From Eutreptiella sp. 'Long Island Sound 2002' (Eukaryota > Euglenozoa > Euglenophyceae > Eutreptiales > Eutreptiaceae): 64,000 bases of DNA. The stretch lies in the NCBI GenBank assembly GCA_964036045.1, contig OZ038392.1, forward strand, positions 17,133,612 to 17,197,611. Reading direction: 5' to 3'. The translations under genes and the position numbers were made by a program. Positions within the stretch are counted from its first letter, which is position 1. Each line of letters starts with the position of its first letter. Below the pieces are notes generated by a model. That model saw only the letters and a program-made list of their open reading frames with translations. It ran no database searches and was not told where the DNA came from. Shown one piece after another: positions 11,401 to 58,919 of the stretch.

Positions 11401-14100
11401 AAAAAATTGCCGTTTTGGGGGCGAAAAGTGACAAAAAATCATGATTTTTGGGTAAAAGTTGGATTTTTCTTGGGCTGTTGAGTGGTTTGGAGGGGTTCCC
11501 ACCCTATTTTGAGGGTGCCGGACGCAGAAAAATCGGTTGTAGAGAGGTAAGGTGATGCCGGGTGCATGTTTTTTCCGTGGTCGTGGTAAAAAATTGCCAT
11601 TTTGGGGGCGAAAAGTGACAAAAAATCATGATTTTTGTGTAAAAGTTGGATTTTTCTGGGGCTGTTGAGTGGTTTGGAGGGGACCCCACCCTATTTTGAG
11701 GCTGCGGGACGCAGAAAAAGGGGTTGTAGGGAGGTAAGCTGGCGCCGGGTGCCCCCTTTTTTCCGTGGTGATGGTAAAAAATTGCTGTTTTGGGGGCGAA
11801 AAGTAACGAAAAATTGTGATTTTTTGGGTAAAATTTGGATTTTTCTGGCGCTGTTGAGTGGTTTGGAGAGGTCGTCACCCTATTTTGAGGATGCCAGACG
11901 CAGAAAAAGAGGTTGTACAGAGGTTAGGTGGCGCCGCATGCACATTTTTTCCGTGGTTATGGTAAAAAATTGCGTTTTGGGGGCGAAAAGTGACGAAGAA
12001 TCGTGATTTTTTGGTTTATTTCGGATTTTTTGGGGGCTGTTAAGTGGTTTGGAGGGATCACCACCCTATTTTGAGGTCACCGGATACGGAAGAAATCAGT
12101 TGTGGAAAGGTGAAGTGGCGTCGGGTGCACATTTTTTTTTGTGGTCATGGTAAAAAATTGCTGCTTTCAAGGCGAAAACAGATGAAAAATTGTTGGGTAA
12201 AATTTCCATTTTTCTGGGGCTGTTGAGGGGTCTGGAGGGGTCGCAAGCTATTTTTGACGGTTCCGGACGCAGAAAAAGGGGGTGTAGACAGGTAAGGAGG
12301 TACCAGGTGCACCCTTTTTCCGTGGTCATGGTAAAAAAAAAGCCGTTTTGAGGGCGAAAAGTGAAGAAAATCGTGATTTTTGGGTAAAATTTAGATTTGT
12401 ATGGGGTCTTTGAGTGGTATGCAGCTGTCGCCACCCTATTTTGAGGCCGCCGGACGCAGAAAAGGGGGTTATAGACGGGTACGGTTGCGCCCGGTGAACA
12501 TTTTTTCCGTGGTTATGGTACAGAAATTTCCGTTTGGACGGCGAAAAAGTGACGAAAAACCGTGATTTTTGGATAAAATGTGGACTTTTCTGGGGCTGTT
12601 GAGTGGTTTGGAGGGGTCATTACCCTATTTTGAGGATGCCGGAGTTGGGAAAAGTGGTTGTAAACAGGTACAGTGGCGCCAGATGCAGTGTTTTTCTTGG
12701 TCATTGCAAAACAGTTGCCATTTTCAGGGCGAAAAGTGACGAAAAAACGTGATTTTTGGATGAAGATTGGATTTTTCCGGGGCTGTTGAGTGGTTTCGAG
12801 AGGTCACCACCATATTTCGAGGATGCCAAACGCAGAAAAGGGGGTAGTAGAAAGGTAACGTGCGCCCGGTCCACTTGTTTCCCGTGGTCATGGAAGAAAA
12901 TTGCTGCTTTCAGGTGCACTTTTTGTCGTTCATCATTTTGGACTATTGCTGTTTTGAGGGTGAAAATGACGGAAAATCATGCTTTTTGTGTACCATTTGG
13001 CTGTTACGAGGGGCTGTTGGTTACTTTGGAGGGGTCACCACCCTATTTTGAGGGTGCTGGACGCCAAGAGAGGTGTTGTAGAAAGGTGAGGTGGCGCCGG
13101 GTGCCGTACGCCGCGACAGGGGAAGTGGAAAGTTAAGGTGGCACCATAGGTACCTTTTTTCCGTTGTCGTAGGGAAAAAATGCCGCTTTGAGGTCGCAAA
13201 ATGCTGAAAAATCGTGATTGTTGGGTAAAATTTAGCTTATTAAGGGGGGCTGTTGGGTAGGATTTGTCTGTTACAAGGGGCTGTTGGTTACTTTAGAGGG
13301 GTCACCACCCTATTTTGAGGGTGCCGGACGCCGAGAGAGTGGTTGTAGAAAGGTAAGGTGGCGCCAGGTGCCGGACGCCGCGACAAGGGATGTGGAAAGT
13401 TAAGGAGGCACCAGAGGTACCTTTTTTCCGTTGTCGTGGGAAAAAAATACTGCTTTGAGGTCGCAAAATGCTGAAAAGTCGTGATTGTTGGGTAAAATTT
13501 AGCTCGTTAAGGGGGCTGTCGGATTCTTTGGAGGGGTCATCACCTTATTTGGATGGTTGCGGATTTGCCTGTTTTGGATGAGGGAGTATTTTATTTTGAG
13601 AGTTCTGGACGCAGATGAAGGGGATGTAGAAAAGGAAGGCGGCAGCAGGTACATTGTTTTTTTTTTTTTTTTTTCGTTGTACTGATTTTTGGGTACATCC
13701 TATATTGTTTGGACGCTGTTGGGTGGTTTGGACGACGGAGTAGCCTAGTTTGCGGTGCCCGACACAGAAAAAGGTGTTTTCTGTAGGCAACATACTACCG
13801 CGTGTACCATTTTCGCCACGTTGTAGCGAAAACGTGCTGCTTTGAGGGTAGAAAGTGACCAAAAATCGTGATTGTTTGTGTACAATTTGTATTGTGTTGT
13901 ATTGTCTACTTTTGTTTTCTCTTGTCATGGTTAAAGATTGCGGTATTTAGGGCAAAAACTGACGTCAAATCGTAAGCTTTTGGTACACTTCGGATTGTCT
14001 AGAGGCTGTTCGGTGGTTTGGAGGGGTCAATGCCATATTTTGAGGGTGGCGGACAAAGAGGAAGTTGGGTTTAGAAATGTAGGGCGGCAGCATGGATCTC
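8490..14100. repeat. Satellite array, unit about 186 bp, about 27-30 copies
   Basis: A unit containing GTGACGCCGGGTGCAC, TTTTTTCCGTGGTCATGG, TCATGATTTTTGGGTAAAA, TTTTTCTGGGGCTGTTGAG and CCCTATTTTGAGGGTGCCGG repeats at about 186-bp spacing (for example near 8945, 9132 and 9318). The copies between roughly 8950 and 11700 are the most alike. Beyond 12500 they drift, and the last recognisable pieces near 13700 and 14030 are heavily decayed. Because 186 is a multiple of three, the - strand shows recurrent 60-residue open frames; these are periodic artefacts, not genes. Confidence 0.93.
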
Positions 14101-14345
14101 GACAACTTGGAAAAATATCGTCACGTGCGGCCAAGGGGTGCTGGGAATGGTATTTTTTTTTTTTTTTGCATTGTGTAAGCTCCTTGTGGCTGTGTTTGCT
14201 ACGCTTCTAATAGTATGAACTGTGTGCGGCGAGTACTGTATGCCTGTTCGCAGCTTTTTCCTTACTTCAACGTTAACGTACATGGTGTGCCATGATTTAT
14301 CGAATTTGTGTACAACCTTTGTGCTTTCAGCATTTGTCTATTTTA

Positions 14346-15262
14346 ATGACTCGGAAAAGAATGCACAAGGATGATACGTCTTATCATCCGCATCGTCCTG
14401 GGGGACGGCGCAAGGGTGCAGCACGGTCTACTCGGGCAGCACGATCGTCTACGCCCGGTGCCAAGCGTGGACGTCCGCCCAAGATCCGACTTGACCACGG
14501 CATCTCGGTACTTTCTGCAAATGCCACAAGCGAGGAGATTGTCGCGGCAGTATTACGTCTGCAACGCCCGTTAGACATTTTAGCGTGCACTGGACAATGT
14601 CTTGCTCTTGATGCGTCTTTGGAAGATATTCGGAGGGCATATCACCATGTATCGTTGAGGATACATCCCGATAAGGTTCCTACCGTAGCCGGAGCAACAG
14701 CTGCATTTCAACGCCTTCAAGAAGCTTACAGAGTGGCCATGCGGGATCCCGGTGCGCGATCACTAGAGAGTAGCTGTGGTATGTACCGTGTTGTATAGGT
14801 AACGTTATATGGCCATTGTTGTTGTGCTGTAAATCTTGAGTAGATTGTTGCCGTAGTGTCGAGAAGATGGTACTTCTTTACTCCTATGCAGACACTGCTT
14901 CATCGATTGGGTCCGATGTATCAGATATGTATTCCTCAGAGAGCTGTGACACTGAAGATTACGCCTCTTTCTCGCCGTTCTCGGCCGATGATTCCCAGTC
15001 TACAGACACGTTCGAGGCTTCATCTGTTAGCGAGGAGGACTTTATGTCTGTTGGAACATCTGACTCGGACGATGGACGTTCAGAGACTCCATCGGTCAGC
15101 CGTACGGACTTCACTTGTGAAGGTTCTTCAGATTCGGCGGAAGGGGCTGAATTCCCAGCCGAGTCGGATGTTCCTTCTGATATGTATGATGAGGAGAGCG
15201 GCGGTATGTATGGTTGTGCAATGGTGAATCGTTATGTATGGTTGTGCAATGGTGAACCCTAA
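14346..15262 (+). CDS. J-domain (DnaJ-like) protein with acidic serine-rich tail, two exons
   Basis: J proteins stimulate the ATPase of Hsp70 chaperones through an invariant HPD motif. The predicted protein starts at 14346 (an upstream Met at 14292 is possible). It has a basic N-terminus with an AT-hook-like KRGRPPK. The J domain follows, with LDASLEDIRRAYHHVS, then HPD at residues 107-109 (14664-14672), then AFQRLQEAYRVA. An intron at 14779-14891 (GTATGT...TATGCAG) joins the frames exactly, G|AC giving Asp. It leads to a tail rich in Ser, Asp and Glu. A second donor-like GTATGT occurs at 15204, so the 3' end is uncertain. The gene lies 150 bp upstream of, and points the same way as, the giant replication protein, suggesting a helper role. 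The J domain is confident; the splicing is inferred. Confidence 0.7.
14779..14891 (+). other. Probable spliceosomal intron in the J-domain gene
   Basis: Begins GTATGT and ends TATGCAG, 113 bp. Removal keeps frame at phase 1 and connects the J domain with the acidic tail. The same GTATGT donor appears in the gene at 27475. Confidence 0.6.
15206..15259 (+). repeat. Short direct duplication, about 27 bp twice
   Basis: The word TATGTATGGTTGTGCAATGG followed by TGAA occurs twice in a row at the end of the acidic tail, right at a possible splice donor. It may be a slippage product that alters the C-terminus. Confidence 0.7.
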
Positions 15263-15409
15263 TCGAATTGGCATCATTTAACGCATTATCATCGGTATTG
15301 TGCATACGTGGGTGCATTGTAGAGAGCACAAAGTGGCTTTGCATTGATAAGTTGGAGAAATTCTCGAATTTTTTCGTTCGTTTAAGGAAATCGGGAAGGT
15401 ACGCGCGTC

Positions 15410-18400
15410 ATGCCGACGGCGCTGGAGGCCAAGATCCGCCAAAGTGTCGGTCTGTACAACAATGGCTGGCTATATTTCAACACAATTGTCAAGGAGTACG
15501 ACAAGTGGTTACAGTTGCGGCCATTTGATGCGGCGGGTATAGAGCTGTGCCGTCTATGTGGTCGCAACGGCGTTCCGCTTGTGCATCCGTGGACGTTTCA
15601 GTCCTTTGTCGGCACCAATTTGCTGCAGCAGTCGGCGAGTGTTTCCGAGGTCCGCCGTCGTGTGCGACAGCTACTAACGAGCGATGTCTCCGGTGCATGC
15701 AAGTGGGTCGGCCATCATGCAAAGTTTGATTGTAAGATCGTACCGCGGCAGAGTAGCCGTTTCTTTGTGTCTCCGCGCGTTTGTGTGGAGGATCTGTGCT
15801 GGTTCTTCTGGCATCATTGCGTACCTCGTGTACATCGCGGGTCAGCCGCGTCGCGTGTTGAGATACACCGGGCCATTTCTTGGCCCTCCCTAATTGGGTT
15901 TTGGCTGTCAAGCCAGCATATATCCACTGTTGAGGAAGTATGGTCGTTGCTGCCGCCAGACGTTCGTCAATGTTGGATGATAGTTGAAGAGTGGGTCGCC
16001 CAAAAGCAGGAGTCGGGCGATATTGTCCGGTCCCAGCCTGTGGTCGGGAGCCGTGTACCGCCTGTGACACGGCCAATGATGAGGAGCATCGAGGCGCTTC
16101 GCCGTAAGTGCCGGCAGCAAGCGAGCACGCGGTGTGTTTCGTGCCGCCTGAGTTTGTTTCCCGAGGAAGTGGATGGTGTGCAACTATTGGCGACCTCCGA
16201 CTACATGTGGCTGAACAAAGGTGGGCCCGGGGAACTCCGGAAACGTCTCCTGGGTGATGCGTCGCGCGACTTGAAGGGAGGCATGGTGTTGTGCGAAGGG
16301 TGGAGACTGTTGTGGAGAACATTTTACGGCTTCGTCATCATGGCCCGAGTGTGGATTTGCGAACGACGTGGCCTTGTGGTATCTGCCTGTGTATTTTGCG
16401 TACAGAACCCGGAACTTCACCACTTTGTCACCCCGAGACCACCTCCTGAGTTGTTTCAGCCGGCACGGATGTCGCTATACGGAGAAGAAGACGACGACGA
16501 TGTATGGTTGCAGCCAGGCAACGGGGTCGATCTAGGATTTCTGGGTGTCGTACGCCTTGTAGACCTTACAATGAAGGCCTCCCGTGTGTGCTACCGCCAA
16601 GGGGATCCTGGGCGACCAGGGAACCTCGTCTTTCGAGTTCTTCGCGTCCGTGGAGATAGCCGTGGGGCCTCGACGGCTTTTTTTTCTATGACACCAGCCC
16701 GGCATATCGCTGCGCGGTTCGCCATTCTCGGACCGACAAGACACGAATGGATCCGTTGCACCGTGTACGAGCGACCGGACCTGGCCATATGGTGGAAGGA
16801 GCTGAAAGCTCGCGGAGAGATGGATGATGCATACGACATTGGCCCTGACGTACGAGTAGAACATCCTGAAGGCGTATGGCTTGCGGAGGCAGCCGAGCGA
16901 CGACGGCGACGTGAAGAGTTGCTTGGTGGGCGGCGAGCTGTAAGAGAGGCGGTGGCTGCGACACTGCGTGGTGACGGATCCTCGGGAGGGGCATCTGCAC
17001 ATGGCCTCCCGTCGGGTGGGGGAGCCGCGCCGGCTACGCAAAGCACAACCGCCGCCAGGCAGAGGACGTATGTACGGACACGGGCAGCTTCGGACGCATT
17101 TGACGCGTCCCTTGCCTCGACGGGTGCATTCCAGGGTCCGACCTCCTCCGAGGCTACGTCTGATCCCCACATGGCATCCAGACCATGTTATACCGGTCCC
17201 GAAAGGCATCATGATGCACCGCCGGGTCTTATGAACACGGGGAATGCGGCACATATTAATTGCTTTATACAAGCAATCTGCAGCATTGGTACTCTGCGGG
17301 ACGCATTGGTGATGGCACCTCCTCCTACAGACGGTAGGGATCTTTTGAGTGCTGAGTTGCGTCGTTCCTTGCGAGAGGTGGTAATCGCAGTGGATGGAGG
17401 AAATGGGCCGTCACGCACTGCGCTGCGTGCTGTGCGGGCCGCTGTCCTGCAGATGTCTGTCCGCTACCGAGTTCCCGGAGTGACGCTTGTACCTGGGAGA
17501 TTGCGGTTAGGAAGCTGGCACGTGGAGGATAAGTCTCTTGACGTTGAGGCTGTCTTCAACATGCTCTCGGTCGAGGTGTTCAAGTCTGCAGTGCGCGTAG
17601 ATGCGAAGGCGGATGTTCGCTGTTTGAGATGCGGCGCGGTTTCTACAGAGAAGGTCGACGATGGGTGTACCGTGCAACTCACGTCCCGTGATCCGCGATG
17701 TCCATCACTCCAGAACCTGTTGCACCTGCACTGGAGAGACTACGGGTGCTCGGTGGCGTGCAAGACGTCGGGATGCGCACCTTGGAACCCTTCGCTTCAA
17801 CAGCATGGTACTTGTGCGGCCATCGGTGTTCCTTCCGTCGTAGCCGTGGGGCGTGTTCTGGTTGTCGCCCTCGGGCAGAGTGAGGTGAAAAAGGGTAAGG
17901 AAGTGCCGCGTGACCCGCAACAACGTGTGACGATCAGTGAGATGGTACGCGTCCCGCTGCGCGGTGCTGGAGCTCCGCTGCGGTATGTTATCCGCGGTCT
18001 AATCGAGCGAGCTTCGGGTAGCGAGGGCTGGGTTGCTACGGTTCGGGGCCCGGATCTTGCACGGTGGTACCGCTGTGCTGATACGGAGGTCTGTGAGGTG
18101 CCATTTCCCGCCGTAGCGTCACCGGTGCTCGTCTTCTACGAACGTGTGCCGCGTTCACCCCCGCCGACGCGCGGAGCGAGCGATGCAACCTCTCAAGGCA
18201 TGCGACGTACTGATGCAGCATCTACAAACATTATCATTGAACCCTCTGCGGACGAAGAGATGGAGGACCAAGCGGACACCGTTTTGGTTCCCCGTACGGG
18301 CACAGGTGCTACGGAATCCTCTTGTGCTACACCAAGTGCTGGAGAAGGGACGAACACGTCAGCGGCAAGGGCGCCGGTCACCGCGGATGAACCATCTCTG

Positions 18401-21400
18401 GCTGTACAACTTTTATCATCGCCGCTTGCGGAAGAACGAGATCCGGGTTGCTACACCGAGGAGATGGCGCAAGAAGGTGGGGATCAACAGCGGCGCTCTG
18501 CGGTAGCTCCGCAGGCGCGGCAGGAGGGTAGGCCTTGCACATTGCCACTTTCTTGCGGCGTGCAGCCTTGCGGGCTTGCGAATGTCGGCAACACATGCTA
18601 CCTCAACAGTTTACTGCAATGCATTCTAGCGTGCGCGCCACTTCGCGATCACTTTCTGACTGTCGACCCCTCAACATGGGACGAGTTCGCTGCTCATCCG
18701 GGCGAGAATGCAAGGTCTGCGCTGCGGCGTGCAAGATCGTTGGACTTGTTTCGTGCCGTTCAGGCAGCTGTGCGGCGGATGGATTCCGGAGGACCCGTAC
18801 ACTGTGGTTTACTGAATACCCTGCGGAATCGTGCGCTCCAGCTGGTTTGCGACTATGGATACAGAGGTGTTGAGGTCGACGAGCACGAGGGTTTTCGTGT
18901 GCTGATGGGGCTGTTGGCCGCCGAGGACGTGTTTGATGTTCTTGCCCATTCTTGTTTCCAGTCCGTTGTCAATGCTACCGTCAGCACGCAGCGTGTTTGT
19001 CAGCGGTGCTCGCGTGTCAGGGACATCCGCCCCGAGGACTTGGCCGTTGTTGAGCTACCGAGGCCGCGTGACGGTCAGCGATCACCGATGGATCTGGTAG
19101 CCATGTACTTGAGCCCGCGCCCAATTGAGGAAACCGTGTGCGAGAACGCTGCATGTCGCTATTGGGACACTGTCGGAGGTGCTTGGCGACCCTATGAAGC
19201 GAATGAGCGGAGGTACTTCATCGAAGCACCCGATGTGTTGGTTTTTAGTGTGCCCCAGGCAAGGGGCACGCATGAGCACGCGCAAATTATCGGTCACAGC
19301 GTGCAGTTGACTGAGATGCTTGACCTACCGGTGTTGCATGCGGATAACCCTGTGTTGTACCAATTGCATGGTGTTGTGGTACCGCTTCCGGGACATTGGA
19401 TTGCATACGCCCGTCGCCGTTTGACAAATACTTGGTATCTTTGCGACGATCTCTCTGCGGCTGAAGCCCCATTACCTGAGGAAATTGCTTGCAGTATGTT
19501 GTTCTACGTCCGGCTTGAGAGCGTCGAAGCTGATCAAATTGCACAAGACGCAGCAGTTGTAACAGCGCGGGCCGCACCCGGCGCGACAAGGATGCACGAC
19601 CCCACGGAGCCGTTTCATGTGGCATCGCGAGTTGTTGGTGGTCGACGAGAACCCAATGAGGTTGATGTGGTGATCGATGTTGATGCCGACGAGGCGGTTG
19701 ACATGGATATCGACGTGGAAGACGATGCCGCAGTTCCGCGAGGGCGCATGCGTAAAGGGCGTGTGGTTGTTGATGATGTCGATGAGGACGTCCCCGTGGG
19801 TGTGGACGCGGCCGACCATACTATTCCTCTCGAAGACAGTACGTGTGCACAAAAATCAACGTGTTCGCAGCAGCGGCCGCCGCTTCGAACAGAAGAACGA
19901 TATGGCGAGGCGCATGTAGCATCCGATCGTGGCGTGTATCTTGGAGCTTTCGATGACCTTGAAGGCGTGTCGGATGAAGATGATGATGGCAAGCCATCGG
20001 CGTCCGGGTCGTCCAGTGCCGGAGACTATCCGGAGACAGAGTTCTCATCTGGAGATGAGCAACGAAGTTGTTGCGATAGCGAGGAAGCTGATGATGCCTC
20101 AGACGAGGACGAGCAAACGCATGAGATGCGCGCCGCGCGAGCCATGTTTGCCGGCATGTCGCGAGGAGAGGATGACGCGAGCGAAGAAGAGGAAGTCGAA
20201 GAAGATGTCCATGTAGACGATGCTACGGGAGAGTACGAAGAGGCTGAAGAGCAGGTCGGTCGCCGCGATCGTGCCCTGGAGTCCGGCTTGATACATCTGC
20301 TCATGAATAGCGTTCCCGGTGGTATTATGGCTTCCAAGCAACGGAGAAACAAGAAGTGGCTAGATCTGCTTGAACGAGTCCAAGCGCGGGTTCCGTCCAC
20401 GGGGGAAGAGTTTTGGGAGTACCTTCCAGCACAGGCGTACCGGTGGCTGTACCGACAACGGACACCGTCAGGTCACTTCGTAGGAGTCATGCCCACACGA
20501 CTTTACGTTGCCAGGCGTGCCTTGGAGGACGGGTTTGTTACGCCCGAGCGGATGTCGTACGAAAAAATGCTCGGGCTTGAGGGTCCGGAGCCGTATGATC
20601 CGGTGATGCGGTCGTACCTCTTCGCGCTGAACATTGCCCGTAAAATGGAGACTGGGGCGTCGGTGCGATACGTCAAGAGGGGATTGCGGGGAGCTCTGCA
20701 CCACAAAGAGTCCATGAATGAGCTTAGCGCCCGCTTTGGTGACCAGATATTGCCGGGAATGCCCATGTCAGGGTCTGATGTCCGCACCGGAGTCGCTGAG
20801 CTGGCAGCTCTCGACAAGTGTGAAGGGCCCGCCGCATACTTTGTGACGATTACGCTCGCCATGGATCGCTTTCCGGGTATTGACGACATTTGGAATGCCA
20901 TTGTCAAGCATCCTAACACGAATCCTTCGCCGCACCTCCCGTACCTGAGCCGGTGCTGGAACCGGGCAAGGCAGTCGTTGTATGAATGGATCATGCTTGG
21001 CGAGGAGCGCCCGTTCGGCAATGTGCGGCTTGTGGCGCGCAATACGGACTTTCAAATTGGCCAAGGGGGCCAGAATGCGCGGGGTAACTTGGGGCACGAC
21101 CACACGAAGATCTGGACCGATGATCCGATCATGCATCCTGACCCCGCTGTGCGGACGGCTGCGCGCGAGGCGGTGTCGGCGCGGGTGACGGCAGATCTGT
21201 ACGACTTGCTTCGTGAAGCAATGGGTGACGCTTTGGAGAGTGAGATGGCGTCCCTGTTTGATCGAGCTGCCGGTACGCGAGATGAAAGCGGAAACCAGAT
21301 CCACCACCACACGTTTTCTTGCACCGACAACGAGGGAAACACGCGGTGCGGTGTGCCGCAGCGGAGTCGGACCGTAGCCGAGTTCGTTGAGATCAAAATC

Positions 21401-24400
21401 ACCGTACCGGAGCACGTTGCTGATCTGCTGGAGAGAATGCGCGGTGTGGCACACCGCGATGTCGAGTCGGGAGAGCTAAAGCTGTGTGACTGGCTCCGCG
21501 GCGGACGCTATCAGCCGCGGCGTGGCGCCGCCTTCCCGATGGGGATTCCCATCAACATACCGACGTACCGCGCCACGGGGGGTAGCCACATGTGCGGTAT
21601 CCATTGCGATGAGGGGCATTTCGCCAACTCCTATCTCGTGAACTACCAAGCTGGACAAGAGGAGCGAACGCTTGTACGGTACACACCCCGCGACGAGGGC
21701 CGCGCGCGGCTCGAGTTTATCGACAGACATTTGAGAAAGCGGATTGCAGCAATGGAAAAGGAAAAGAAGAAGGACCGTCGGCAGACGCGGGAGTGCATCC
21801 CTGAACCGGAGCTTGTGGCTCTGCTGCAGCAGGAGCCCATCATGGAGGTTTTGGAGGTGGTAGACTGGGAGAGAGGCGATATCCGCCCAATTGAGTTCGT
21901 GCACTACAGCACGGCGCTACCGAGCGAGCGCTATGTACGCCCGCGGCCAGTGAACACCGATGCGGCGGAGCGAGCAGATCCGGGGCCGTTGTTTGGCGGG
22001 CCGCGCGCGGCAGAGGACATATTGGCAACTGTCGAGCTCTTTCTGCCACCTCGGTGCATGCCCTCGCTCGGGCAGCTGCGGGTGTATGTGCGAGACCGTG
22101 GTAGCGACAAGTGTCCCGATCGACCGGCCGTGTACAACATGGGCCCGCCGGCGTTGTGCGCGCTGGGGCAACTTCCGATGAAGGTTTTCAACGAGGTGGC
22201 CATCCATCACGAGGACGACAAATTGCCGCATGACGAGAGGCCCTTGCCGTGGCAAGAGGGGGTGCCCTGTGGCCTTTGGGCGGCATACCGCGGCTTCTAC
22301 GGTTTGCGCGGTGAGCGGTGGTTCTTGCGGCCTGCGTTTATCTACCATCCGAGATACGAACATCTCGTTCAACGGGTGTTTCTAGATAAAATGAGGCAGC
22401 CGGAGTTGCTTGCGACCATCCGCGAGCATTGGCACCGCGGGACCCGTTTACCACCTCGCGAGGTGTTGGACTATGTGGAGTGGCCTATAGGCCGTGCCAT
22501 TGGTGTGACGCGCCATGTAGAGCCGCGGAACGAGCTACAATGGCTCGTCCACACAGCGTTGGCAAGCGACACATCGTTTGACGACGAAGTGGCTCTCTTC
22601 GCCGATGGCGCGTACACTGCAGCGCAGCGGGCATTGTCAGAGGACCGCGTGGGGTGTGCGCTGGAGGGAGAAGTCATTGATGTCTTGGAGCGATTTTTCC
22701 GCTGCGAGCTCCGGCACTGGGGATATCCCTACCGACGTACGTGGAAGGTGCTTGTGCGTTCCAACGAAGCCTTCGGCAACCTGCTCGCAGGCAGTGGCAT
22801 TCCGATGACCGCTGCTCAGCGTTTTTTCCTTCCCATTCTCGAGCACGACCTGGACGAGGAGCATTGTAAGCAGTATCGAGATTTCGAGACAGCGGTCGCA
22901 GCGCGCCACCGCGAGGCTGCAGAGGAGTGGTGCTCAGTTCGCACTGCGGCTCTTGCGCTCGGTGCCGCAGCGAGCGAGGACGGCATGCTAGTACGAGCCC
23001 ATCGCGAGGTCCATGGCTTCGAGATGTCAGATCAGGCTTGGGATGAGCAGCTGCGCGGCTATGCGCGCATTGGCGACCGGCTCCGTTCCCTCCGTCGGAC
23101 GGCTGTTCGGCCGGGATCGGAAGAGCTCTCCCGTGACGGTGCATGGGTGTTGAAGCAATACATCAACCCGCTTGTTATCATTGGTGCTGCGGGTACCGGG
23201 AAGTCGTACCTTGCGCAAGCATTGCACGCCCTATGCGACCGTCTTCGGTTGAAGTGGGAGGTCACGTCGATCATGGCATTCATGGCAGTGATGGCCGGTG
23301 GCATGCACGCCCATGCGCTTGGTCGGTTCCACAAGGATGACAGCGGGTGTACCGCCGCACGAATGGCCGAGTACGGGATGACCCGTTTGCGCACTTGTCC
23401 GGTATTGCGCCGGTATTTGCAAGAACTAGACGTGCTCTTCATCTCTGAGTACGGCAATTGGACAGACCGCCTCATCACAGCCTTCGATATGCTGTTGCGA
23501 GAAGTGCGGCGAAGCAGCCACCCGTTCGGAAATTTAATGATTATCGCCGACGGTGATCATTACCAGGTTAAGCCGATATGTGACCATGGTGAGAGTAGTG
23601 CATTGTCTTGTATGCTGACCACAAGTTTGTTCTCCTCGCTGCGTCTACGTCATCTAGTCCGTTGCCGCGACCCTGCTTTGGCGGAGGTACAAGATATCTT
23701 ACGGCAGGTAACACCAAGCAATGAACAAATCAAGACGTTGAAGCACCTGCTTGAACAGCATTGTCACGTAAACTGCATCCCAGACGACTCCGTGGGGGCC
23801 GTGCGCTTCTTTGCGCACAAGGATGCCGTTCGGGAGTACAACGAGGGACGCGCGGCCAACGTGCCCGCAAAAGATAAGTACACGTTTGCGTGCACTGATC
23901 AAGAGGTACGGCATTTTCAGAGCTGCGACCTCACAGATAAAACCCGAAAGACCGCAGAGCGCATACTAGACTCACACACGGACTACGTACGGAGGTTGAC
24001 AGTATGGCGCGGGATGCAAGTCATGTATCGGGGTACGTGCCGGGACCGTGATGCCGGGGTGGTGAAATGCGCAATGGGCAAGGTGACGGATTGGTCGGAC
24101 GGGGTTGGAGATGGTCTGGCGTGGGTGGATGTGCTACTCGAACGCCCGCGCCGCCACACCCGGCCGGTTCGGTTCCGTCCGATTGAGTCTGAGGCCATCA
24201 CGGGTCCTGAGGGTCGGATGATCACCCGAACACAGATCCCTTTGATCCCGGCCGAGTGCTGGACGCTGCACATGGGGATGGGGATGACATTCGACGCCGT
24301 GGCGAGTGAACTTGTAAAGTCCGACCGCAGCCGTCGGATGTGGGACCGTGGCCAGTGGTACATGTTCATGCTGCGGGTTCATTACTTATCAAATGTGTGG

Positions 24401-25030
24401 TTGATGAGGTATGAGCTGGAGCTCATCGATTATCTGCTCGCGAAGCCGGATCCGGATCTCGCGATCGTGAATGCTTGGGTCGAGCAAACCGATCTGCTGG
24501 CGCCCCACGGTGGGCGCACGGACCCGCGGTTGCTGCCTGCAGGGGTCCGCGAACTACTTGCCCGGCCCTGCCGAACGATCGGCAGCTTGGTGGCGCCTCC
24601 AGAGGGGCATATGTGCGTATATCTTACGCAACAAGAGCATCCGCCGTACCGTGTATACTGGGGATACTCGGAGCGGGTAGAGAAGAGGGTGGCAGAGCAC
24701 AACAGCAACACGAACCTCGCCAGCAAGCGATGTCGAGGGAGGACGGATTGGCTTTTGGCCGCCTACGCCAGCACGTTTCCAAACACGAAGAAGGGCCACG
24801 AAGAAGCCAAGGCCGCGCGACACTGGGCCAAGGTAGAGATGCTGCGCTTGGAGACGGCCGGCCAACAGCAAAGGGTGGCGCGCCACGGTTGGCGCTCGCT
24901 GCACGACAACATCGTGATCTTGACCGACCTGGTGTACAAGTGGAACAAGGAGCACAAGCTGGAGTTGCGGATTGTTGCCGCCGACACCAATTTTGACGTG
25001 CTGCGGCGTGAGCGTTCGGGCGAAGAATGA
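15410..25030 (+). CDS. Giant Helitron-type protein: dead USP, active-type USP, HUH Rep, Pif1-like helicase, GIY-YIG
   Basis: A single open frame of 3206 residues. Seen in order: CxxC pairs at C47/C50, C242/C245 and C327/C330; a USP-like domain from about 600 with GNAAHIN where the Cys box should be (A614 for Cys, W874 near the His position); a second USP domain with GNTCYLN (C1063), H1329 in LPGHW and D1346/D1347; an acidic linker about 1430-1640; a Rep region with YFVTITLAMDRFPGI (from 1810), GHDHTKIW (H1896, H1898) and SYLVNYQ (Y2075, Y2079); a helicase with GAAGTGKS (2592-2599), E2680, GDHYQ (2715-2719) and GQWYMFMLRV (R2989); and a GIY-YIG-like end with VYL (3070), YWGY (3083), R3093 and H3097. 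HUH Rep plus Pif1-type helicase is the Helitron hallmark, a rolling-circle transposase acting on nuclear DNA. The other modules are inferred additions. The start at 15410 is the first Met; an upstream exon is possible. Confidence 0.85.
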   Translation: MPTALEAKIRQSVGLYNNGWLYFNTIVKEYDKWLQLRPFDAAGIELCRLCGRNGVPLVHPWTFQSFVGTNLLQQSASVSEVRRRVRQLLTSDVSGACKWVGHHAKFDCKIVPRQSSRFFVSPRVCVEDLCWFFWHHCVPRVHRGSAASRVEIHRAISWPSLIGFWLSSQHISTVEEVWSLLPPDVRQCWMIVEEWVAQKQESGDIVRSQPVVGSRVPPVTRPMMRSIEALRRKCRQQASTRCVSCRLSLFPEEVDGVQLLATSDYMWLNKGGPGELRKRLLGDASRDLKGGMVLCEGWRLLWRTFYGFVIMARVWICERRGLVVSACVFCVQNPELHHFVTPRPPPELFQPARMSLYGEEDDDDVWLQPGNGVDLGFLGVVRLVDLTMKASRVCYRQGDPGRPGNLVFRVLRVRGDSRGASTAFFSMTPARHIAARFAILGPTRHEWIRCTVYERPDLAIWWKELKARGEMDDAYDIGPDVRVEHPEGVWLAEAAERRRRREELLGGRRAVREAVAATLRGDGSSGGASAHGLPSGGGAAPATQSTTAARQRTYVRTRAASDAFDASLASTGAFQGPTSSEATSDPHMASRPCYTGPERHHDAPPGLMNTGNAAHINCFIQAICSIGTLRDALVMAPPPTDGRDLLSAELRRSLREVVIAVDGGNGPSRTALRAVRAAVLQMSVRYRVPGVTLVPGRLRLGSWHVEDKSLDVEAVFNMLSVEVFKSAVRVDAKADVRCLRCGAVSTEKVDDGCTVQLTSRDPRCPSLQNLLHLHWRDYGCSVACKTSGCAPWNPSLQQHGTCAAIGVPSVVAVGRVLVVALGQSEVKKGKEVPRDPQQRVTISEMVRVPLRGAGAPLRYVIRGLIERASGSEGWVATVRGPDLARWYRCADTEVCEVPFPAVASPVLVFYERVPRSPPPTRGASDATSQGMRRTDAASTNIIIEPSADEEMEDQADTVLVPRTGTGATESSCATPSAGEGTNTSAARAPVTADEPSLAVQLLSSPLAEERDPGCYTEEMAQEGGDQQRRSAVAPQARQEGRPCTLPLSCGVQPCGLANVGNTCYLNSLLQCILACAPLRDHFLTVDPSTWDEFAAHPGENARSALRRARSLDLFRAVQAAVRRMDSGGPVHCGLLNTLRNRALQLVCDYGYRGVEVDEHEGFRVLMGLLAAEDVFDVLAHSCFQSVVNATVSTQRVCQRCSRVRDIRPEDLAVVELPRPRDGQRSPMDLVAMYLSPRPIEETVCENAACRYWDTVGGAWRPYEANERRYFIEAPDVLVFSVPQARGTHEHAQIIGHSVQLTEMLDLPVLHADNPVLYQLHGVVVPLPGHWIAYARRRLTNTWYLCDDLSAAEAPLPEEIACSMLFYVRLESVEADQIAQDAAVVTARAAPGATRMHDPTEPFHVASRVVGGRREPNEVDVVIDVDADEAVDMDIDVEDDAAVPRGRMRKGRVVVDDVDEDVPVGVDAADHTIPLEDSTCAQKSTCSQQRPPLRTEERYGEAHVASDRGVYLGAFDDLEGVSDEDDDGKPSASGSSSAGDYPETEFSSGDEQRSCCDSEEADDASDEDEQTHEMRAARAMFAGMSRGEDDASEEEEVEEDVHVDDATGEYEEAEEQVGRRDRALESGLIHLLMNSVPGGIMASKQRRNKKWLDLLERVQARVPSTGEEFWEYLPAQAYRWLYRQRTPSGHFVGVMPTRLYVARRALEDGFVTPERMSYEKMLGLEGPEPYDPVMRSYLFALNIARKMETGASVRYVKRGLRGALHHKESMNELSARFGDQILPGMPMSGSDVRTGVAELAALDKCEGPAAYFVTITLAMDRFPGIDDIWNAIVKHPNTNPSPHLPYLSRCWNRARQSLYEWIMLGEERPFGNVRLVARNTDFQIGQGGQNARGNLGHDHTKIWTDDPIMHPDPAVRTAAREAVSARVTADLYDLLREAMGDALESEMASLFDRAAGTRDESGNQIHHHTFSCTDNEGNTRCGVPQRSRTVAEFVEIKITVPEHVADLLERMRGVAHRDVESGELKLCDWLRGGRYQPRRGAAFPMGIPINIPTYRATGGSHMCGIHCDEGHFANSYLVNYQAGQEERTLVRYTPRDEGRARLEFIDRHLRKRIAAMEKEKKKDRRQTRECIPEPELVALLQQEPIMEVLEVVDWERGDIRPIEFVHYSTALPSERYVRPRPVNTDAAERADPGPLFGGPRAAEDILATVELFLPPRCMPSLGQLRVYVRDRGSDKCPDRPAVYNMGPPALCALGQLPMKVFNEVAIHHEDDKLPHDERPLPWQEGVPCGLWAAYRGFYGLRGERWFLRPAFIYHPRYEHLVQRVFLDKMRQPELLATIREHWHRGTRLPPREVLDYVEWPIGRAIGVTRHVEPRNELQWLVHTALASDTSFDDEVALFADGAYTAAQRALSEDRVGCALEGEVIDVLERFFRCELRHWGYPYRRTWKVLVRSNEAFGNLLAGSGIPMTAAQRFFLPILEHDLDEEHCKQYRDFETAVAARHREAAEEWCSVRTAALALGAAASEDGMLVRAHREVHGFEMSDQAWDEQLRGYARIGDRLRSLRRTAVRPGSEELSRDGAWVLKQYINPLVIIGAAGTGKSYLAQALHALCDRLRLKWEVTSIMAFMAVMAGGMHAHALGRFHKDDSGCTAARMAEYGMTRLRTCPVLRRYLQELDVLFISEYGNWTDRLITAFDMLLREVRRSSHPFGNLMIIADGDHYQVKPICDHGESSALSCMLTTSLFSSLRLRHLVRCRDPALAEVQDILRQVTPSNEQIKTLKHLLEQHCHVNCIPDDSVGAVRFFAHKDAVREYNEGRAANVPAKDKYTFACTDQEVRHFQSCDLTDKTRKTAERILDSHTDYVRRLTVWRGMQVMYRGTCRDRDAGVVKCAMGKVTDWSDGVGDGLAWVDVLLERPRRHTRPVRFRPIESEAITGPEGRMITRTQIPLIPAECWTLHMGMGMTFDAVASELVKSDRSRRMWDRGQWYMFMLRVHYLSNVWLMRYELELIDYLLAKPDPDLAIVNAWVEQTDLLAPHGGRTDPRLLPAGVRELLARPCRTIGSLVAPPEGHMCVYLTQQEHPPYRVYWGYSERVEKRVAEHNSNTNLASKRCRGRTDWLLAAYASTFPNTKKGHEEAKAARHWAKVEMLRLETAGQQQRVARHGWRSLHDNIVILTDLVYKWNKEHKLELRIVAADTNFDVLRRERSGEE
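17222..18160 (+). other. Catalytically dead USP-like domain (residues about 605-915)
   Basis: PGLMNTGNAAHINCFIQAIC aligns with the USP Cys box GLxNxGNTCYLNSLLQ, but Ala614 replaces the nucleophile. The later segment SGSEGWVATVRG, then RWYRCAD, corresponds to the His box, with Trp874 near the expected His. Cysteine pairs (CLRC and the CSVACKTSGC region) suggest a retained zinc site. A ubiquitin-binding or scaffold role is possible. Confidence 0.7.
18563..19530 (+). other. Intact USP (peptidase C19) domain (residues about 1052-1374)
   Basis: CGLANVGNTCYLNSLLQCIL is a textbook USP Cys box with C1063. CQRC and a later CENAAC form the expected zinc-binding fingers. LHGVVVPLPGHWIAYAR carries H1329, and WYLCDD supplies the third catalytic acid. 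USPs cleave ubiquitin or ubiquitin-like proteins from substrates. All three catalytic positions are present. Confidence 0.85.
20800..21740 (+). other. Helitron Rep-like HUH/Y2 nuclease region
   Basis: YFVTITLAMDRFPGI resembles the LFVTFTCNPxWPEI block of Helitron Rep proteins. GHDHTKIW supplies the HxH metal motif. CGIHCDEGHFANSYLVNYQ resembles the block that carries the paired tyrosines, with the same Y-x3-Y spacing (Y2075, Y2079). The order and spacing match rolling-circle Rep of Helitrons; the sequence is strongly diverged. Confidence 0.7.
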
Positions 25031-25063
25031 GATTGTGGTGGCTACCGCCCGCCCGACTTTGCT

Positions 25064-25103
25064 GCCCGTGTTTTTGGGGAGCTTGCGACCCATAAACACG
25101 GGC
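25064..25103 (+). terminator. Strong hairpin 34 bases after the giant gene's stop
   Basis: GCCCGTGTTT (25064-25073) pairs perfectly with AAACACGGGC (25094-25103). After one mismatch, TGGG pairs with CCCA, leaving a 10-base loop. It could be an mRNA 3'-end structure. Helitrons also end in a hairpin, but no CTRR end follows within a few bases, so a transposon terminus is not established. Confidence 0.6.
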
Positions 25104-26417
25104 GCACCGTAAGCTGTGTACATTGGAATCATTGTTTTCTTTTCTCTCCTTGTTTTGGTGGTCCCGTTAGTGGGTTGCACCCAGGTTCGTCTCTGAGTAC
25201 TTTTGAACGGGCGTGTCGTTATTTGATCCTTCCGGGTTGTCTGCCGTTTGGTGTGTTGTAGACGTCAAGGGTTGATTACGTTTTGTGGTATATCATCTTT
25301 GTGAGCCGATTAGGTTGGTATGCTTCTTTGTAGCTTTGTTGAACTTCGTGTACCCCCATATTGTACATGGTAAGGTTACAATGCGTATGTCAGCGACTGC
25401 ATGCCATGAAATGCTGCTATCAAGAGCCATATGCCGTTGACATTGTAAAAATTCGGTTTTTTTCGCGGTAGGCGCTGGTTATTGTTCAAGTATCTGACCT
25501 TATTTGAAGGACGATATACAAGCCTGTATAACCATTTTGATGGTGGTTTTATTGGTATGAGCAAGTCTGCAATTTAGCGTGTTTGCCGTCGTCATGGGTG
25601 GTGGTAGTCTCGCCCAACAGGATCTGGTTTTATTTTCAATTTTTGTTTTGTGTTGCGATCCCGATATACTGCAAAAAAGGATGACAAGTGTCGGAGTCGA
25701 CTGGATGATTGGTGCCCTATGACGAGTCTAGGAAAGCTATTGCCATTGTACGATGCCATCTGGCCTTGAGTTGACTCAAGTGTATTACCGGCAAGTTGCC
25801 GAGAATATCACGATGCGCATGATCCATGTCAATGCGAATTGTGCTAAATGCTACTCAGTCCCACTCAGAAAGATTGCGACCTCTTGCTGATAGTGGCATT
25901 GAAGTATGGACGGTTGTGCAATGGTCTATAGTGTTTTGAGTTCTTTGAGACCCTCGGTGCATAGTGTTGTGCTACGTAATAGGTACATTTGACATGTGAT
26001 GTGATGGTTGTTGCTACGTCATCTTTGTGCTTGACACGTAGGTGATGGTTGAATGGTGATGCAGCCTGAAGGTAGAGCATTATTGATAAGTGTGAACTGC
26101 GTTGCGTTATTTTGTGAGAAGCAATAAGTGGTTGTACTTGGTAGATCGGTTGCTAATTGTGCAAGTACTTGGGCACCTGGTTTTACAGTGTAGACGTCTC
26201 TTTTCTGAATGACGTGGGATGGAGGGGACAATATCATTTGAACTTTGCGAAACATTGGTGTCGTCGACTGACGTATCCACAAATTCCCACTGCCCGGGGT
26301 TTTCTTTTTTCATCGATGACGAATGTATTACTGCAATTAGATTCCATTATGTGATAATGAGAAATGAAGTGAATTCACCACCTAAGGTTGCATAATTACG
26401 CGAAACGCAGCGATTCT

Positions 26418-26448
<31 letters not shown>

Positions 26449-26926
26449 GGTAGGATCAATAACGTAGTATTGCAGCTAGAATCAATGATGCGACAATCAT
26501 AAAGGAATTCATTTCAGCGCAGGGGCTTCCGTAACTGCGGAAAAAGGGGATCTGGCGGATTGGGCAGGTCAAGTTGATGTAAAATCGGTGGTGTGCAGAC
26601 CACAATGTGTGAAGTAGATGTGGTGGTATCGTCTTTTGGATGCATTAACCGTTGTTCATTGGAATCAGGATAACAGTAGTATCTTCTTGTTGCATTTGAT
26701 AGTGGGCCTCCGGCATGCAGAATATCTGTAGTTTGGGAAATGATGGCGTGTATATAGGTGATGAATGAGGCATTTTTTGTTTTGTGTTCTTTGGCTGATG
26801 TTCGTTTACTTCGTCGCTTTGACGTTTTTCCAAGCTGTGAGTCGACTATACACCCTTTGGAGCATGGATTGCGAAAGGATCGTATCGTGGCACTAGATAC
26901 ATCTGCGTGCAACACTGTCTTGTCCC

Positions 26927-26958
<32 letters not shown>

Positions 26959-27474
26959 TTTACCGGTATTCATAGTGGTGTAAACGGAATGGGCTGTGAG
27001 AATATGTGACATGACACGCTGAGTAATGCAAGATGCTTTGGCGCAGTACTTTCGGGTAGAGATGGTGTACACTGTCATGTTGTTCTGGTGTACAGAGTCG
27101 ATGGAGCGCAAAGCATGCATGGAAATTACGAGGTTTCTATTTTTCAATTACTGATGTCTGTTTGTATTGGCAGTGACCCATTGTCAATGGATTTGTCGCT
27201 CGAGCTGCTTCATGCTTAATATGTCTCGCGGCAATTTTTTTTTTTTTTGTGCTTAGACGGTTCTCTTGTATTCGATAATGGACGTGCTAACGCTTCTATT
27301 TTTAGTGTCACGTTTCAAACACAGTGATTGTGCGGCACCGGTGCATGTAATGTAAATACGGTGAGAGCGGAAAGCTGCTATTGCTGATTGATGATGGTTG
27401 GCTTTAAGTACGTGTTACGGGTACATTTCTTTTATCCTCTTGTCCTTATAGTGCTTTGGTAGTACATCTTCAAT
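25104..27474. other. Noncoding spacer between the giant gene and the RPA-like gene
   Basis: No convincing gene. The spacer is AT-rich with T-runs at about 26419-26448, 26935-26961 and 27236-27248, and a C10 run at about 26926. Open frames are short, overlap in both strands and show no recognisable domain. It may hold the 3' UTR and promoter of the flanking genes. Confidence 0.6.
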
Positions 27475-28820
27475 ATGTCGCGGAAAGCTTATCAATCAAC
27501 TGGGGACTTGAACGGGCAGATCACTCGTGCACGGCAAGCACCCGTGGTGGGTAAGCAAGCTTTGAAGGATGGGTTTCGCAGGATTGGTCGAATGACTTTG
27601 ACACCGCTACATGTATCTACGAAGGAGGAGCAGGTGAAGCCCATGCGGACTTTTGGTTCACAGCCTCCCGCAGCAAAACGTATCAAGTATGTTCCATGTT
27701 TGGCTCCACTTGAACGTTTGGAAGCATGGTTTTGATCGTGATGGTTATGAGGGCAGTCTCGTGGATGATATTTGCAGTGGGTTCACTTACATGCCGAATG
27801 AGTGGGAGGACGGGTTGTTTGTTCGGATCGTACGCACCTTGTTGTTTGGAATGTGTAGCCGATGTCAAGCCCGGGATGATGTTCCTGTTGTGTAGGATTG
27901 GTAAGACCGAGGGAGAAACGAAGACATATCCCAGCATGGTATTTTTGACGGATCATCTGGGCGGGCCAGTCGCAATGCCTCTGGAGGTGGGAGCAACAGG
28001 TGAGTTTGCAACGTTTGGCACGAGAAGCAAGATCGTTGCAGCCGGAGCTACGGCAGTGAGTCGATACCGTACTTGGGATGGAGTGTACATGCTTGGGGCA
28101 CCGTTTTGCATGATGCCGACTGCCCACCATGGCGGTGAATGGCTGGATTGTCTAATCATGGACTTCAAAGGTCCCCATGGCGGAGTGGCCGTACCTGCGT
28201 ACTGCATTTCGGACGCGCCTGCAAGCGGTATGGACCCCTTCTCCCCAGCAGCTGCACCCACCGAGGAGGACCATGCCAGGTACGACAAAGCCTTGTTGCA
28301 ACGCTACTTCTTGGATGTTGGGATTACGATGAGTCGCGTCCTTCCGGCCCGCTTGCACTACGACGAGGAGAACGCCGATACGACAGATATGTTTGTACCT
28401 GTCCTGTGTCGCGGACTGCGTGTGGTGGAGACGGCCAGCTACTCGAGCGTACGCATTTTCCCTTGTTGCAAAAGTTGGTTCTGCATGGGGATGAACTCCT
28501 TTACTGACGTGAAACAGGCTTGCCCTGCCGGATGTGGTCAAGGAAAGGACGCAAGCTGGTCAGTGAAAGCGATGATGGTTTTGGAGGACGACAAGGGTAA
28601 CGCCGTCGATGCGTTGTTCGAGGGTCATTATTGTACGGAAAGGCTGCTGGGTTTTATTCGCCGAGAGCGCCCGGGTATTGCCGACGCTCCATCCGAAGAG
28701 GAGGTGTTCAATGCCACCGTTCCTTGGAAGCAGAAGCGAATCTGGGTTGTAGGATGGGGCAGGCCTCAAAGTAAGACGGATGTGGCGATCCATGTGGTAC
28801 GGTTCGGCGTGTCCGATTGA
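27475..28820 (+). CDS. RPA-like single-strand DNA binding protein, probably three exons
   Basis: The C-terminal part (about 27896-28820) contains CxxCx..C..C-type cysteines in RIFPCCKSWFCMGMNSF and ACPAGCGQGKDASW, followed by VKAMMVLEDDKGNAVDALF and TERLLGF. This order (zinc ribbon, strand, I/V-x-D-x-x-G, F, LLG) resembles the C-terminal OB fold of RPA70 and of RPA proteins carried by some plant and animal Helitrons. The frame is broken into three pieces that can be joined by an intron 27687-27777 (GTATGT...TTTGCAG, phase kept) and a second near 27817-27895 (GTTTGT...TGTGTAG, phase kept). The N-terminus MSRKAYQSTGDLNG is basic. RPA coats single-stranded DNA during replication, which would suit a rolling-circle element. 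The family call is tentative. Confidence 0.5.
27687..27777 (+). other. Probable intron 1 of the RPA-like gene
   Basis: GTATGT...TTTGCAG, 91 bp. Splicing joins AA|T and continues into GFTYMPNEWEDGLF in frame. The unspliced reading frame stops at 27735. Confidence 0.5.
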
Positions 28821-28956
28821 GGTTGGAGAAATTCTGTGTTCCACAAGTATTGCAACGGTGCATGTGATTGCGTACGTATGCATACAGACGCGTGCAGTCT
28901 GAGCTTTGGGCGTGGCCAATGGTTGATTTGCCTCTTTTTGGGATAATTCTTTTTTC

Positions 28957-28988
<32 letters not shown>

Positions 28989-30560
28989 ATTTTTTTTTTT
29001 TTTTTTGCGATTGAAGACATGGAGTCATCAAGGTGGCACGGAGGCTTCGAGTCGATGAATGGAGTCTTCAAGCTGGTTGGCTTTGTACCACAATTGCGAT
29101 GCAATGCGCTTGGTGCCTGGTCGTCTGCAGGATATGGCATCATGGATTGCCTGCTGCATCTGTCGTATTTGTTGGTTTGCAATTGCATGGGTTTCGCGGC
29201 AGTTGGCATCGTGTATATATTGTACCATATGTGGTTCCTTGGTGCCTTTGCGATAAGTTGTATTTTGCAAGTAAGTTAGTTTGTACAACGTGGAAGACTT
29301 TCAGGTCTTTCTTTTTCTTTTTTCATTTTCCGTACTCTGTCGGAGTGTCTGGTTGCGCATCTTTTTTCTTGATGATGAGAGATGTTTGGAAGTGTACAGT
29401 ACGATCATTGATGAGTAAGCACGTCTCTGTGTTGTTAGCAACGTTTTCCGAATAACTATTTATCCAAATCATAGGTGAGTGTGTATGAGTCGCTTGCCTT
29501 ATGGCACTTGTTTCCCCACTTCCCATGTTGACACCTTATCCTGACCAGGGCGTGGTTTGGTGTTCCTTGCGGAGCATGTTTACATGCCTATTGACCTCTA
29601 TGCCTGTGGTATTACCCTCTCCTCCAGGATGTGCGTCGCAGGTGGGGTTACATGAGCGTTGCCTCCGTCCGCGTATGCGACCTTTTGTACCTACCATGTG
29701 CTTCTCTAAAGGAAGATGTTGTCGGGCACTCCTGTGGTGCATATTTCGTTCATTTGTGTGGGGCGACATAGCACCGTAGTGATGAATGCGTGCTTTGCTA
29801 CTTCTACATTATTTTTGCTTCTGGAGCTTTCATTGTAGGTGCCTCGGTCGTGATATACGACTGCATTTTGGTTTCCTATTTGTGCACCGGTTGGTGTGTT
29901 GTTCATATGCTATGCATGTGTCAATGTACAGTACAGATTCGCGGAGGCTCCTTATCTTTGTATTTTGACGCAAAATGGTCATACAACTAGGGCTATGATG
30001 GTTGTCACTTCAATTTGGGCACAAATTCTCTTGCATGATGCTTTATGTATTGTTTTGCGCTTTTTTTCCGTGTTGCGTGCGAAATTTGAACGTTTCGTAG
30101 TTGTTGAATAGTGCTATTGGGGTATTTGTGCTGTCTTCTCTTGCGGTAGTGTGTGATTATGCGGCATTTATATAGGCCCGAAAAAAGGGGTTGCTGCTGA
30201 TGTGTCAAGCTAGTGCAAACAATGGTGTATGCGGCTGCGCTGTTGTTTGCTAAGGTTGTGCAGACGAAACGACCTCAAGAGTCACATCTAGGACATGACG
30301 ATGTGTGTAGCTAGTAGAAACATTGGTAGGCGGCGCTTTTCATAGGTAAGGCAATGCAGACCGCAAAACGTTCTTATTGAGATCGAGAAACGTGTCATGA
30401 TATGATGCGTGTGATGGTCCATTGTGATGTATCGATGGCGCACCTCACATTGAAGGGATTATCTGCGTGCTCCGGCGATACAGCTTCGTTAGGGTGAAGG
30501 TAACAAAAAAGCGGTGAGGATAGACGTTTGCAGTTGTGAACCACGATACATAAAGCGAAT
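28821..30560. other. Noncoding T-rich region
   Basis: No supported gene. T-runs lie near 28958-28977 and 28990-29007. A hydrophobic open frame at 29019-29279 (86 residues) could encode a small membrane peptide, but nothing supports it beyond length. Bases 30200-30290 and 30305-30395 are weakly similar to each other (TAGCTAGT, GGCGGCGCTTTT-like words), an old local duplication. Confidence 0.5.
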
Positions 30561-30899: not shown

Positions 30900-31272
<373 letters not shown>

Positions 31273-31391: not shown

Positions 31392-31429
<38 letters not shown>

Positions 31430-58908: not shown

Positions 58909-58919
58909 AGGCGGGGTGG

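Follow-up and report, generated by a model that had tools for sequence, protein, structure and literature searches.

The genome of Eutreptiella sp. 'Long Island Sound 2002' contains, in a stretch of 64,000 nucleotides that was analysed as a whole (the 64-kb window), a single open frame of 3206 codons, whose product an earlier note had described as a Helitron-like transposase fused to two ubiquitin-specific proteases (USPs) and a GIY-YIG nuclease. This raises the question of what kind of genetic element encodes such a protein and what a deubiquitinase and a GIY-YIG nuclease could do in it. The overall best explanation, with a probability of about 0.75, is a large Helitron-like rolling-circle transposon that moves by the mechanism proposed below; that it is a Helitron-like mobile element at all is almost certain. 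The element (27,992 bp) far exceeds the open frame to which the first reading was confined and contains further genes. According to the ORF listing of the window, the open frame spans positions 15410-25030, and from the N- to the C-terminus the protein comprises a conserved block, a degenerate USP (USP1), an intact USP (USP2), a putative HUH/Y2 Rep, a PIF1-type helicase and GIY-YIG:

15410..25030, + strand: USP-USP-Rep-helicase-GIY-YIG protein, 3206 aa (ORF, Pfam, genome copies)
15410..17206, + strand: N-terminal conserved block, residues 1-599 (43% identity to the relative L026)
17207..18154, + strand: USP1, degenerate, residues 600-915 (Pfam below threshold, alignment of copies)
18569..19507, + strand: USP2, intact, residues 1054-1366, with Cys1063 and His1329 (Pfam, alignment of copies)
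20480..21754, + strand: putative HUH/Y2 Rep, residues 1691-2115 (motifs kept down to 45% identity, Pfam in two relatives)
23171..24439, + strand: PIF1-type SF1 helicase, residues 2588-3010, downstream of Rep (Pfam, profile search)
24611..24796, + strand: GIY-YIG nuclease core, residues 3068-3129 (Pfam, relatives)

The residues singled out in the earlier note (H1896, H1898, Y2075, Y2079, GAAGTGKS from 2592, GDHYQ from 2715 and R2989) were all found at these positions. The N-terminal block, which contains conserved cysteine pairs and is 43% identical between families, matched no known domain in Pfam or in a profile search against the PDB.

A search with residues 1780-3050 against the window's own genome (2.28 Gb, 2205 contigs) gave at least 42 matches, some of which are pieces of one copy. 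Nine of the matches listed, the window included, cover the whole query with 93-100% identity and belong to frames of 3154-3232 aa; the remaining matches are 90-92%, 58-64% and 38-47% identical. In the following, c2 and c5-c9 are among the eight other near-identical copies, L026-L032 denote relatives, and C1, C15, C19 and so on denote contigs. The frame is complete in eight of the nine near-identical copies; c8 has an early stop and, downstream, a gap of 5,000 N. Families with about 60-65% (L027, about 64%) and 45% identity (L026) coexist in the genome. L026, 45% identical in Rep and helicase, has a frame of 2668 aa with the N-terminal block, one intact USP, Rep, helicase and a GIY-YIG-like end; the frames of L028, L029, L030 and L031 are broken or truncated. 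An assembly chimera that joins unrelated genes was rejected, since eight other near-full matches exist, three of which share the window's contig and five of which lie on other contigs. dN/dS was determined from five pairs of copies, which share copies and hence are not independent, and amounted to 0.04-0.06 for Rep, 0.03-0.09 for the helicase, 0.03-0.05 for GIY-YIG, 0.18-0.22 for USP2, 0.19-0.25 for USP1, 0.15-0.18 for the N-terminal block, 0.22-0.41 for the acidic stretch and 0.47-0.73 for the linker between the USPs. Rep, helicase and GIY-YIG are thus under strong purifying selection, and the proposed fusion of a Helitron-like transposase with USP and GIY-YIG is borne out by its multiple copies and by this selection. 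Outside this genome, no relatives were found in viral contigs (two single-protein scans) or in contigs of prokaryotic genomes, each scan consisting of six short exact patterns that would miss distant relatives.

The window family and the relatives L026, L027, L029, L030 and L032 have all retained motif I of Rep (YFVTITL) together with HxH and YxxxY. With residues 1780-2115 of the window protein no Pfam family matched, so that the Helitron_like_N match on which the earlier note had staked residues 1800-2110 was absent from the window protein itself and appeared in two relatives only, L029 (E 6.2e-6, 27.0 bits) and L026 (E 4.4e-5, 24.2 bits), in both below the cut-off of 28.9 bits; L027 and L032 gave no Helitron_like_N match. 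Of ten alignment members two matched, the best with an E-value of 9.5e-5. The AlphaFold2 model of Rep and the middle region was unusable (mean pLDDT 38.4) and did not confirm the HUH fold; the assignment as a putative HUH/Y2 Rep therefore rests on the motifs and on the sub-threshold Pfam matches in relatives. The helicase matched PIF1 in Pfam at residues 2588-2738 (E 4.8e-8, whole protein). When a profile of Rep and helicase was compared with the PDB, PIF1 structures were found with an E-value of 6e-22 and Helraiser with 0.0015, the latter through the helicase part only and not through Rep. The Asp of Walker B is replaced by Ser in the window protein (LFISE) and by Gly in the 60-65% families (LFIGE); the 45% family reads FIDE.

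A UCH/USP match was found in Pfam at residues 1054-1366 (E 1.9e-21, whole protein). This domain, USP2, has the Cys box GNTCYLN, and both Cys1063 and His1329 are kept in all nine copies; USP2 is very probably catalytically active. USP1 matched only with its Cys box and weakly (20.4 bits, cut-off 23.9, E 4.3e-4 with the fragment); in all nine copies the Cys box reads GNAAHIN, with Cys replaced by Ala, and the His box is lost. Two active proteases were therefore rejected: of the two USP domains of the earlier reading one is intact, whereas the other is dead in 9/9 copies and lacks the catalytic Cys and His that USP2 has retained. Because USP1 is constrained about as strictly as USP2 and carries Ala in every copy, it may have a role in binding or as a scaffold. 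L026 has a single USP with the Cys box GNSCYIN and the His box PGHW. In L027, three USP-like blocks follow each other, a dead one with a stop, an intact one and another dead one (GDMSYLN, TGRW); the first is 37% identical to USP1 of the window (E 1.4e-55) and has a Cys box without Cys, which makes a dead first USP common to two families. Within L027:1-3264, USP blocks have multiplied and decayed while one remained intact.

That L026 has one USP-like block, the window family two and L027 three bears on the idea that USP and GIY-YIG are captured pieces of host genes, fused in frame and carried as passengers with no role in movement. Capture of gene pieces is known for Helitrons (PMC6431247), and the varying block number leaves room for a USP history that is in part dispensable. 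Yet the 45%-identity family has the same domain order and dN/dS is far below 1, and we consider passengers quite unlikely. A somewhat better, still improbable reading is that the USP is not a deubiquitinase but a processing protease that frees Rep-helicase from a 3206-aa polyprotein, as could be expected with several enzymes joined in one giant frame; polyprotein processing is frequent among viral deubiquitinases according to the text of PMC9741609 that bears on them. Against this stand the lack of a Pfam ubiquitin domain in the protein and the poor conservation of the linker between the USPs, with the highest dN/dS range given above. USPs cleave after a ubiquitin-like C-terminus, which also counts against processing.

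At the C-terminus, GIY-YIG scored 19.8 bits with the whole window protein (E 9.8e-4), below the cut-off of 22.6, and 25.8 bits with the C-terminal fragment alone (E 1.3e-5), above it. Among the relatives L032 reached 25.1 bits and L026 just 15.0 bits, which is below the cut-off; the GIY-YIG end of L027 is 70% identical and placed past a frame break. Y3071, Y3083, R3093 and H3097 of the window protein are also kept in L026 and L032, as is E3148, a candidate for the catalytic Glu only. Pfam found no EEP/AP endonuclease in the 3206-aa protein; GIY-YIG stands in its place.

The boundaries of the element were determined from copies elsewhere in the genome, which gave the following features:

3756..31747, + strand: whole Helitron-like element, 27,992 bp, GCCCC...CTTGTT (5' and 3' junctions, empty site of a non-autonomous relative)
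31704..31747, + strand: conserved 44-bp 3' end with terminal TTGTT (genome matches)
3762..3775, + strand: 5' subterminal palindrome GGGCC-GGAA-GGCCC (20 fetched 5' junctions)
1340..3755, + strand: 2.4-kb non-autonomous copy with both ends, head to tail with the full element
1..1339, + strand: another non-autonomous copy of this tandem, 3' part only, as the copy starts before the window
4380..5243, + strand: 186-bp tandem repeats
8510..12904, + strand: 187-bp tandem-repeat array within the element's 5' part; degenerate copies continue to about 14059

The 3' boundary lies at 31747 (...GCGCTTGTT), and the same sharp edge is reached by seven of the nine copies; the 3' end of c6 is about 70 bases short and the next element starts there, that of c8 lies inside a gap and that of c2 comes after a gap of 200 bases. 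A search with the 3' end listed 42 matches; 30 of these, including one that lies in the window, start at the final 44 bp and are 92-100% identical. CTTGTT terminates 20/20 fetched 3' ends, 19 of which are followed by unrelated flanks and one by another 5' end, and the next base varies (10 G, 4 C, 4 T and 2 A, n = 20). That the boundary at 31.7 kb is merely an insertion edge was rejected, since unrelated loci stop at the same CTTGTT. In two copies of the 45% family (C1 and C4) divergence starts just past CTTGTTG; apart from CTTGTT, the 3' end of this family is, by eye, unlike that of the window family.

The 5' end is GCCCC at 3756. Among 40 listed 5' matches, 23, including two in the window, directly follow a 3' end in tandem and 17 do not, numbers to be read with the query in mind, which held 26 bases of the 3' end including TTGTT and favours tandems and TTGTT flanks among the matches listed. 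All 17 non-tandem 5' junctions (16 fetched and c5) are preceded by TT[G/T/A]TT, i.e. TTGTT, TTTTT or TTATT. An empty site was found for one 2.4-kb copy on C19: its joined flanks match 95/95 bases at eight listed places of a 99-bp satellite; two of these belong to the array in which the copy itself sits, at a distance of about 1 kb or less. As judged by this one empty site, of a non-autonomous copy in a satellite array, insertion is precise and without target-site duplication. Arrays of the 99-bp satellite are present on many contigs (C6, C13, C10, C3 and others), and the one on C19 was invaded by the 2.4-kb non-autonomous copy. The 5' palindrome was present in 20/20 fetched junctions with both arms invariant, and hence there is no covariation. 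Folding of the termini was no better than that of shuffled sequences (as good in 82/200 for the 5' and 193/200 for the 3' end), and a terminal inverted repeat of 8 bp only was not significant (554/2000 shuffles as good). Instead of the canonical ends TC/CTRR and a target between A and T, the element has GCCCC...CTTGTT and a TTNTT target. An identity as Helitron1 was therefore rejected on ends and target: Helraiser (7lcc) resembles the element in its RepHel organisation and in the helicase match mentioned above, but differs in its TC...CTRR ends, its target and its Rep part.

The search for further copies and element ends, suggested in the earlier note, thus yielded nine near-identical copies and exact ends, and it also uncovered tandem arrays, the only observation that bears directly on rolling-circle transposition. 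In the window, two non-autonomous copies (1-1339 and 1340-3755) precede the full element in head-to-tail orientation, the second of them meeting it at 3756. On C15, c6, c8 and the window element follow in succession with spacings of 28.2 and 32.7 kb, consistent with one element and with one element plus two 2.4-kb copies, respectively. Pairing of 5' and 3' ends points to four more copies of about 2.4 kb, on C1, C19, C7 and C3. Head-to-tail arrays and a size of 28 kb would also suit an integrated large DNA virus or a virus-like rolling-circle plasmid, the USP then being a viral-type deubiquitinase, and herpesviral-type deubiquitinases are described in Helentrons as well (PMC9741609). This is very unlikely: no Pfam capsid match was obtained with the three element ORFs scanned, the viral contigs contained no relatives in the two single-protein scans with short exact patterns, tandem repeats take up much of the 5' part, and the copies of about 2.4 kb have the same ends, as is typical of transposons.

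Besides the giant frame, the Helitron-like element contains:

14292..14798, + strand: J-domain (DnaJ) ORF with the HPD motif kept (Pfam DnaJ, E 9.7e-11, profile positions 11-52 of 63)
14840..15259, + strand: acidic open frame (c6, c7, c9)
27726..28820, + strand: 364-aa ORF with a C-x4-C...C-x3-C pattern (ORF, copy comparison)

The J-domain ORF with its HPD motif is present in all seven other copies translated. The acidic frame probably continues the J-domain gene as its next exon, a splicing that is suggested because c6, c7 and c9 read both as one. The 364-aa ORF has a 52%-identical homologue in c6 and is truncated in c2; neither Pfam nor the PDB gave a match and the model was unusable (pLDDT 30.8). 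Its cysteine spacing recalls what we take to be the pattern of the RPA70 zinc ribbon, and an RPA-like protein is only a guess. Downstream of the ORF of the 45% family, L076 and L077 both have an open frame of 228 aa that is, by eye, unlike the 364-aa ORF. The 187-bp array is also found in other copies.

Around the 3' end, an EEP endonuclease ORF on the minus strand (31584-33002, Pfam Exo_endo_phos, E 1.8e-9) spans the boundary at 31747 and is accompanied by the frames 32999-33502 and 33889-35844, also on the minus strand. Insertion of the element into some other mobile element, perhaps a non-LTR retrotransposon, could account for this arrangement. Further downstream, G+C reaches 0.71-0.76 in 40000-48000, where open frames overlap on both strands, and a direct duplication (36021-38731 and 57506-60691, about 80% identity) lies near frames that, on visual inspection, resemble fragments of gag and reverse transcriptase; those tested had no Pfam match.

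From the anatomy, copies, ends, target, selection and the one empty site described, we infer the enzyme activities and every step of the following mechanism. The Y2/HUH Rep would nick after a TTGTT-like sequence at the 5' junction and become covalently joined to the 5' GCCCC end, while the strand would be unwound by the PIF1-type helicase. Rep would then terminate at the 3' CTTGTT and attach the strand to a target that has been cleaved behind TT[G/T/A]TT, with no duplication. Head-to-tail build-up would result either from insertion at the TTGTT of another copy, the 3' end holding the preferred target motif, or from failed termination. The intact USP may act in cis as a deubiquitinase and thereby save the giant transposase, or the intermediate with Rep covalently bound to DNA, from destruction triggered by ubiquitin, and the dead USP may be retained for binding or scaffolding; protection of the transposase or its DNA adduct has, in our view, slightly less than an even chance. 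GIY-YIG would take the place of an accessory nuclease that the AP endonuclease holds in Helentrons, and could cut a second strand, again with slightly less than an even chance. A covalent Rep-DNA intermediate would presumably be seen by the cell as a DNA-protein crosslink, and ubiquitylation of such crosslinks is reported to activate the protease SPRTN (PMC12279946). A wider proposal is tentative and has clearly less in its favour: that deubiquitinases in cis are needed repeatedly as the transposase is itself, during transposition, a crosslink that cells tag with ubiquitin for destruction, that USP was recruited independently of OTU and VTD and GIY-YIG independently replaced the AP endonuclease, and that the elements form a separate lineage whose TTGTT end equals its target code and builds tandems.

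Comparison with known systems places the element nearest to Helitron2 and Helentrons. Helentrons of animals and some fungi share with it the HUH/Y2 Rep, a PIF1 helicase, a deubiquitinase (OTU and/or VTD), a C-terminal endonuclease, a T-rich target and an unmodified target site (PMC4067079, PMC9741609); they are described as carrying OTU proteases and RPA (PMC4067079). The element differs from these descriptions in USP, GIY-YIG, the dead USP that was kept and the J-domain gene upstream. In zebrafish Helentrons, VTD deubiquitinases of demonstrated activity occur alongside OTU or replace it, and the authors suggest that deubiquitinases prevent degradation of transposition proteins and that different classes can serve (PMC9741609). 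The zebrafish elements DrT1 and DrT2 likewise have a deubiquitinase in cis, up to two domains and activity on ubiquitin (PMC9741609), but theirs are VTD and OTU with an AP endonuclease, in contrast to USP and GIY-YIG. The unrelated deubiquitinase that the earlier note saw in an equivalent role is present; since exchange of deubiquitinase classes was already known from OTU and VTD, the USP is a further case of it and not the first.

Helitron2 inserts beside TTTT (followed by T or C), and Fusarium elements have multiple termini (PMC5148889); the Rep motifs and Helitron2 are described in PMC6213432 and PMC3627910. Helitron2/FoHeli resemble the element in T-rich or TNAT insertion, tandem copies or multiple termini and perhaps a 5' hairpin (PMC5148889, PMC3627910), the T-rich target corresponding to TT[G/T/A]TT in the 17/17 non-tandem 5' junctions. 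FoHeli3-5 start with TGCCT and finish with CTCCTGT (PMC5148889, PMC3627910), and FoHeli elements measure 5-11 kb. The element is longer by a factor of 2.5 to 5, and no significant inverted repeat was found in it; the Helitron descriptions consulted contain no USP or GIY-YIG. Terminons, giant Penelope-like elements of rotifers, also form head-to-tail arrays with accessory GIY-YIG-like nucleases and Rep proteins, but are reverse-transcriptase elements in whose description a RepHel-USP fusion was not found (PMC6431247). In the transposon literature seen, GIY-YIG belongs to Mariner-type or Penelope-type elements (among PMC9741609, PMC3627910, PMC12910113 and PMC6431247). The earlier note knew of no described Helitron with this set of domains; full-text literature searches, which covered few subscription journals and neither bioRxiv preprints nor Repbase, likewise showed none with USP or GIY-YIG among the papers listed, as judged by title and the beginning of the abstract.

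In sum, the locus carries a Helitron-like element that is nearest to Helitron2/Helentrons in target choice and domain plan and differs in deubiquitinase class and nuclease, which points to a repeated recruitment of helper enzymes by elements of this kind. The element is intact and multi-copy, its ends are exact and its target motif is clear, and it has small non-autonomous partners, which makes it a good substrate for transposition assays. If corresponding places of rolling-circle transposons are indeed taken by three classes of deubiquitinase and by two nucleases unrelated to each other, their roles would become a testable requirement and not a matter of chance capture.
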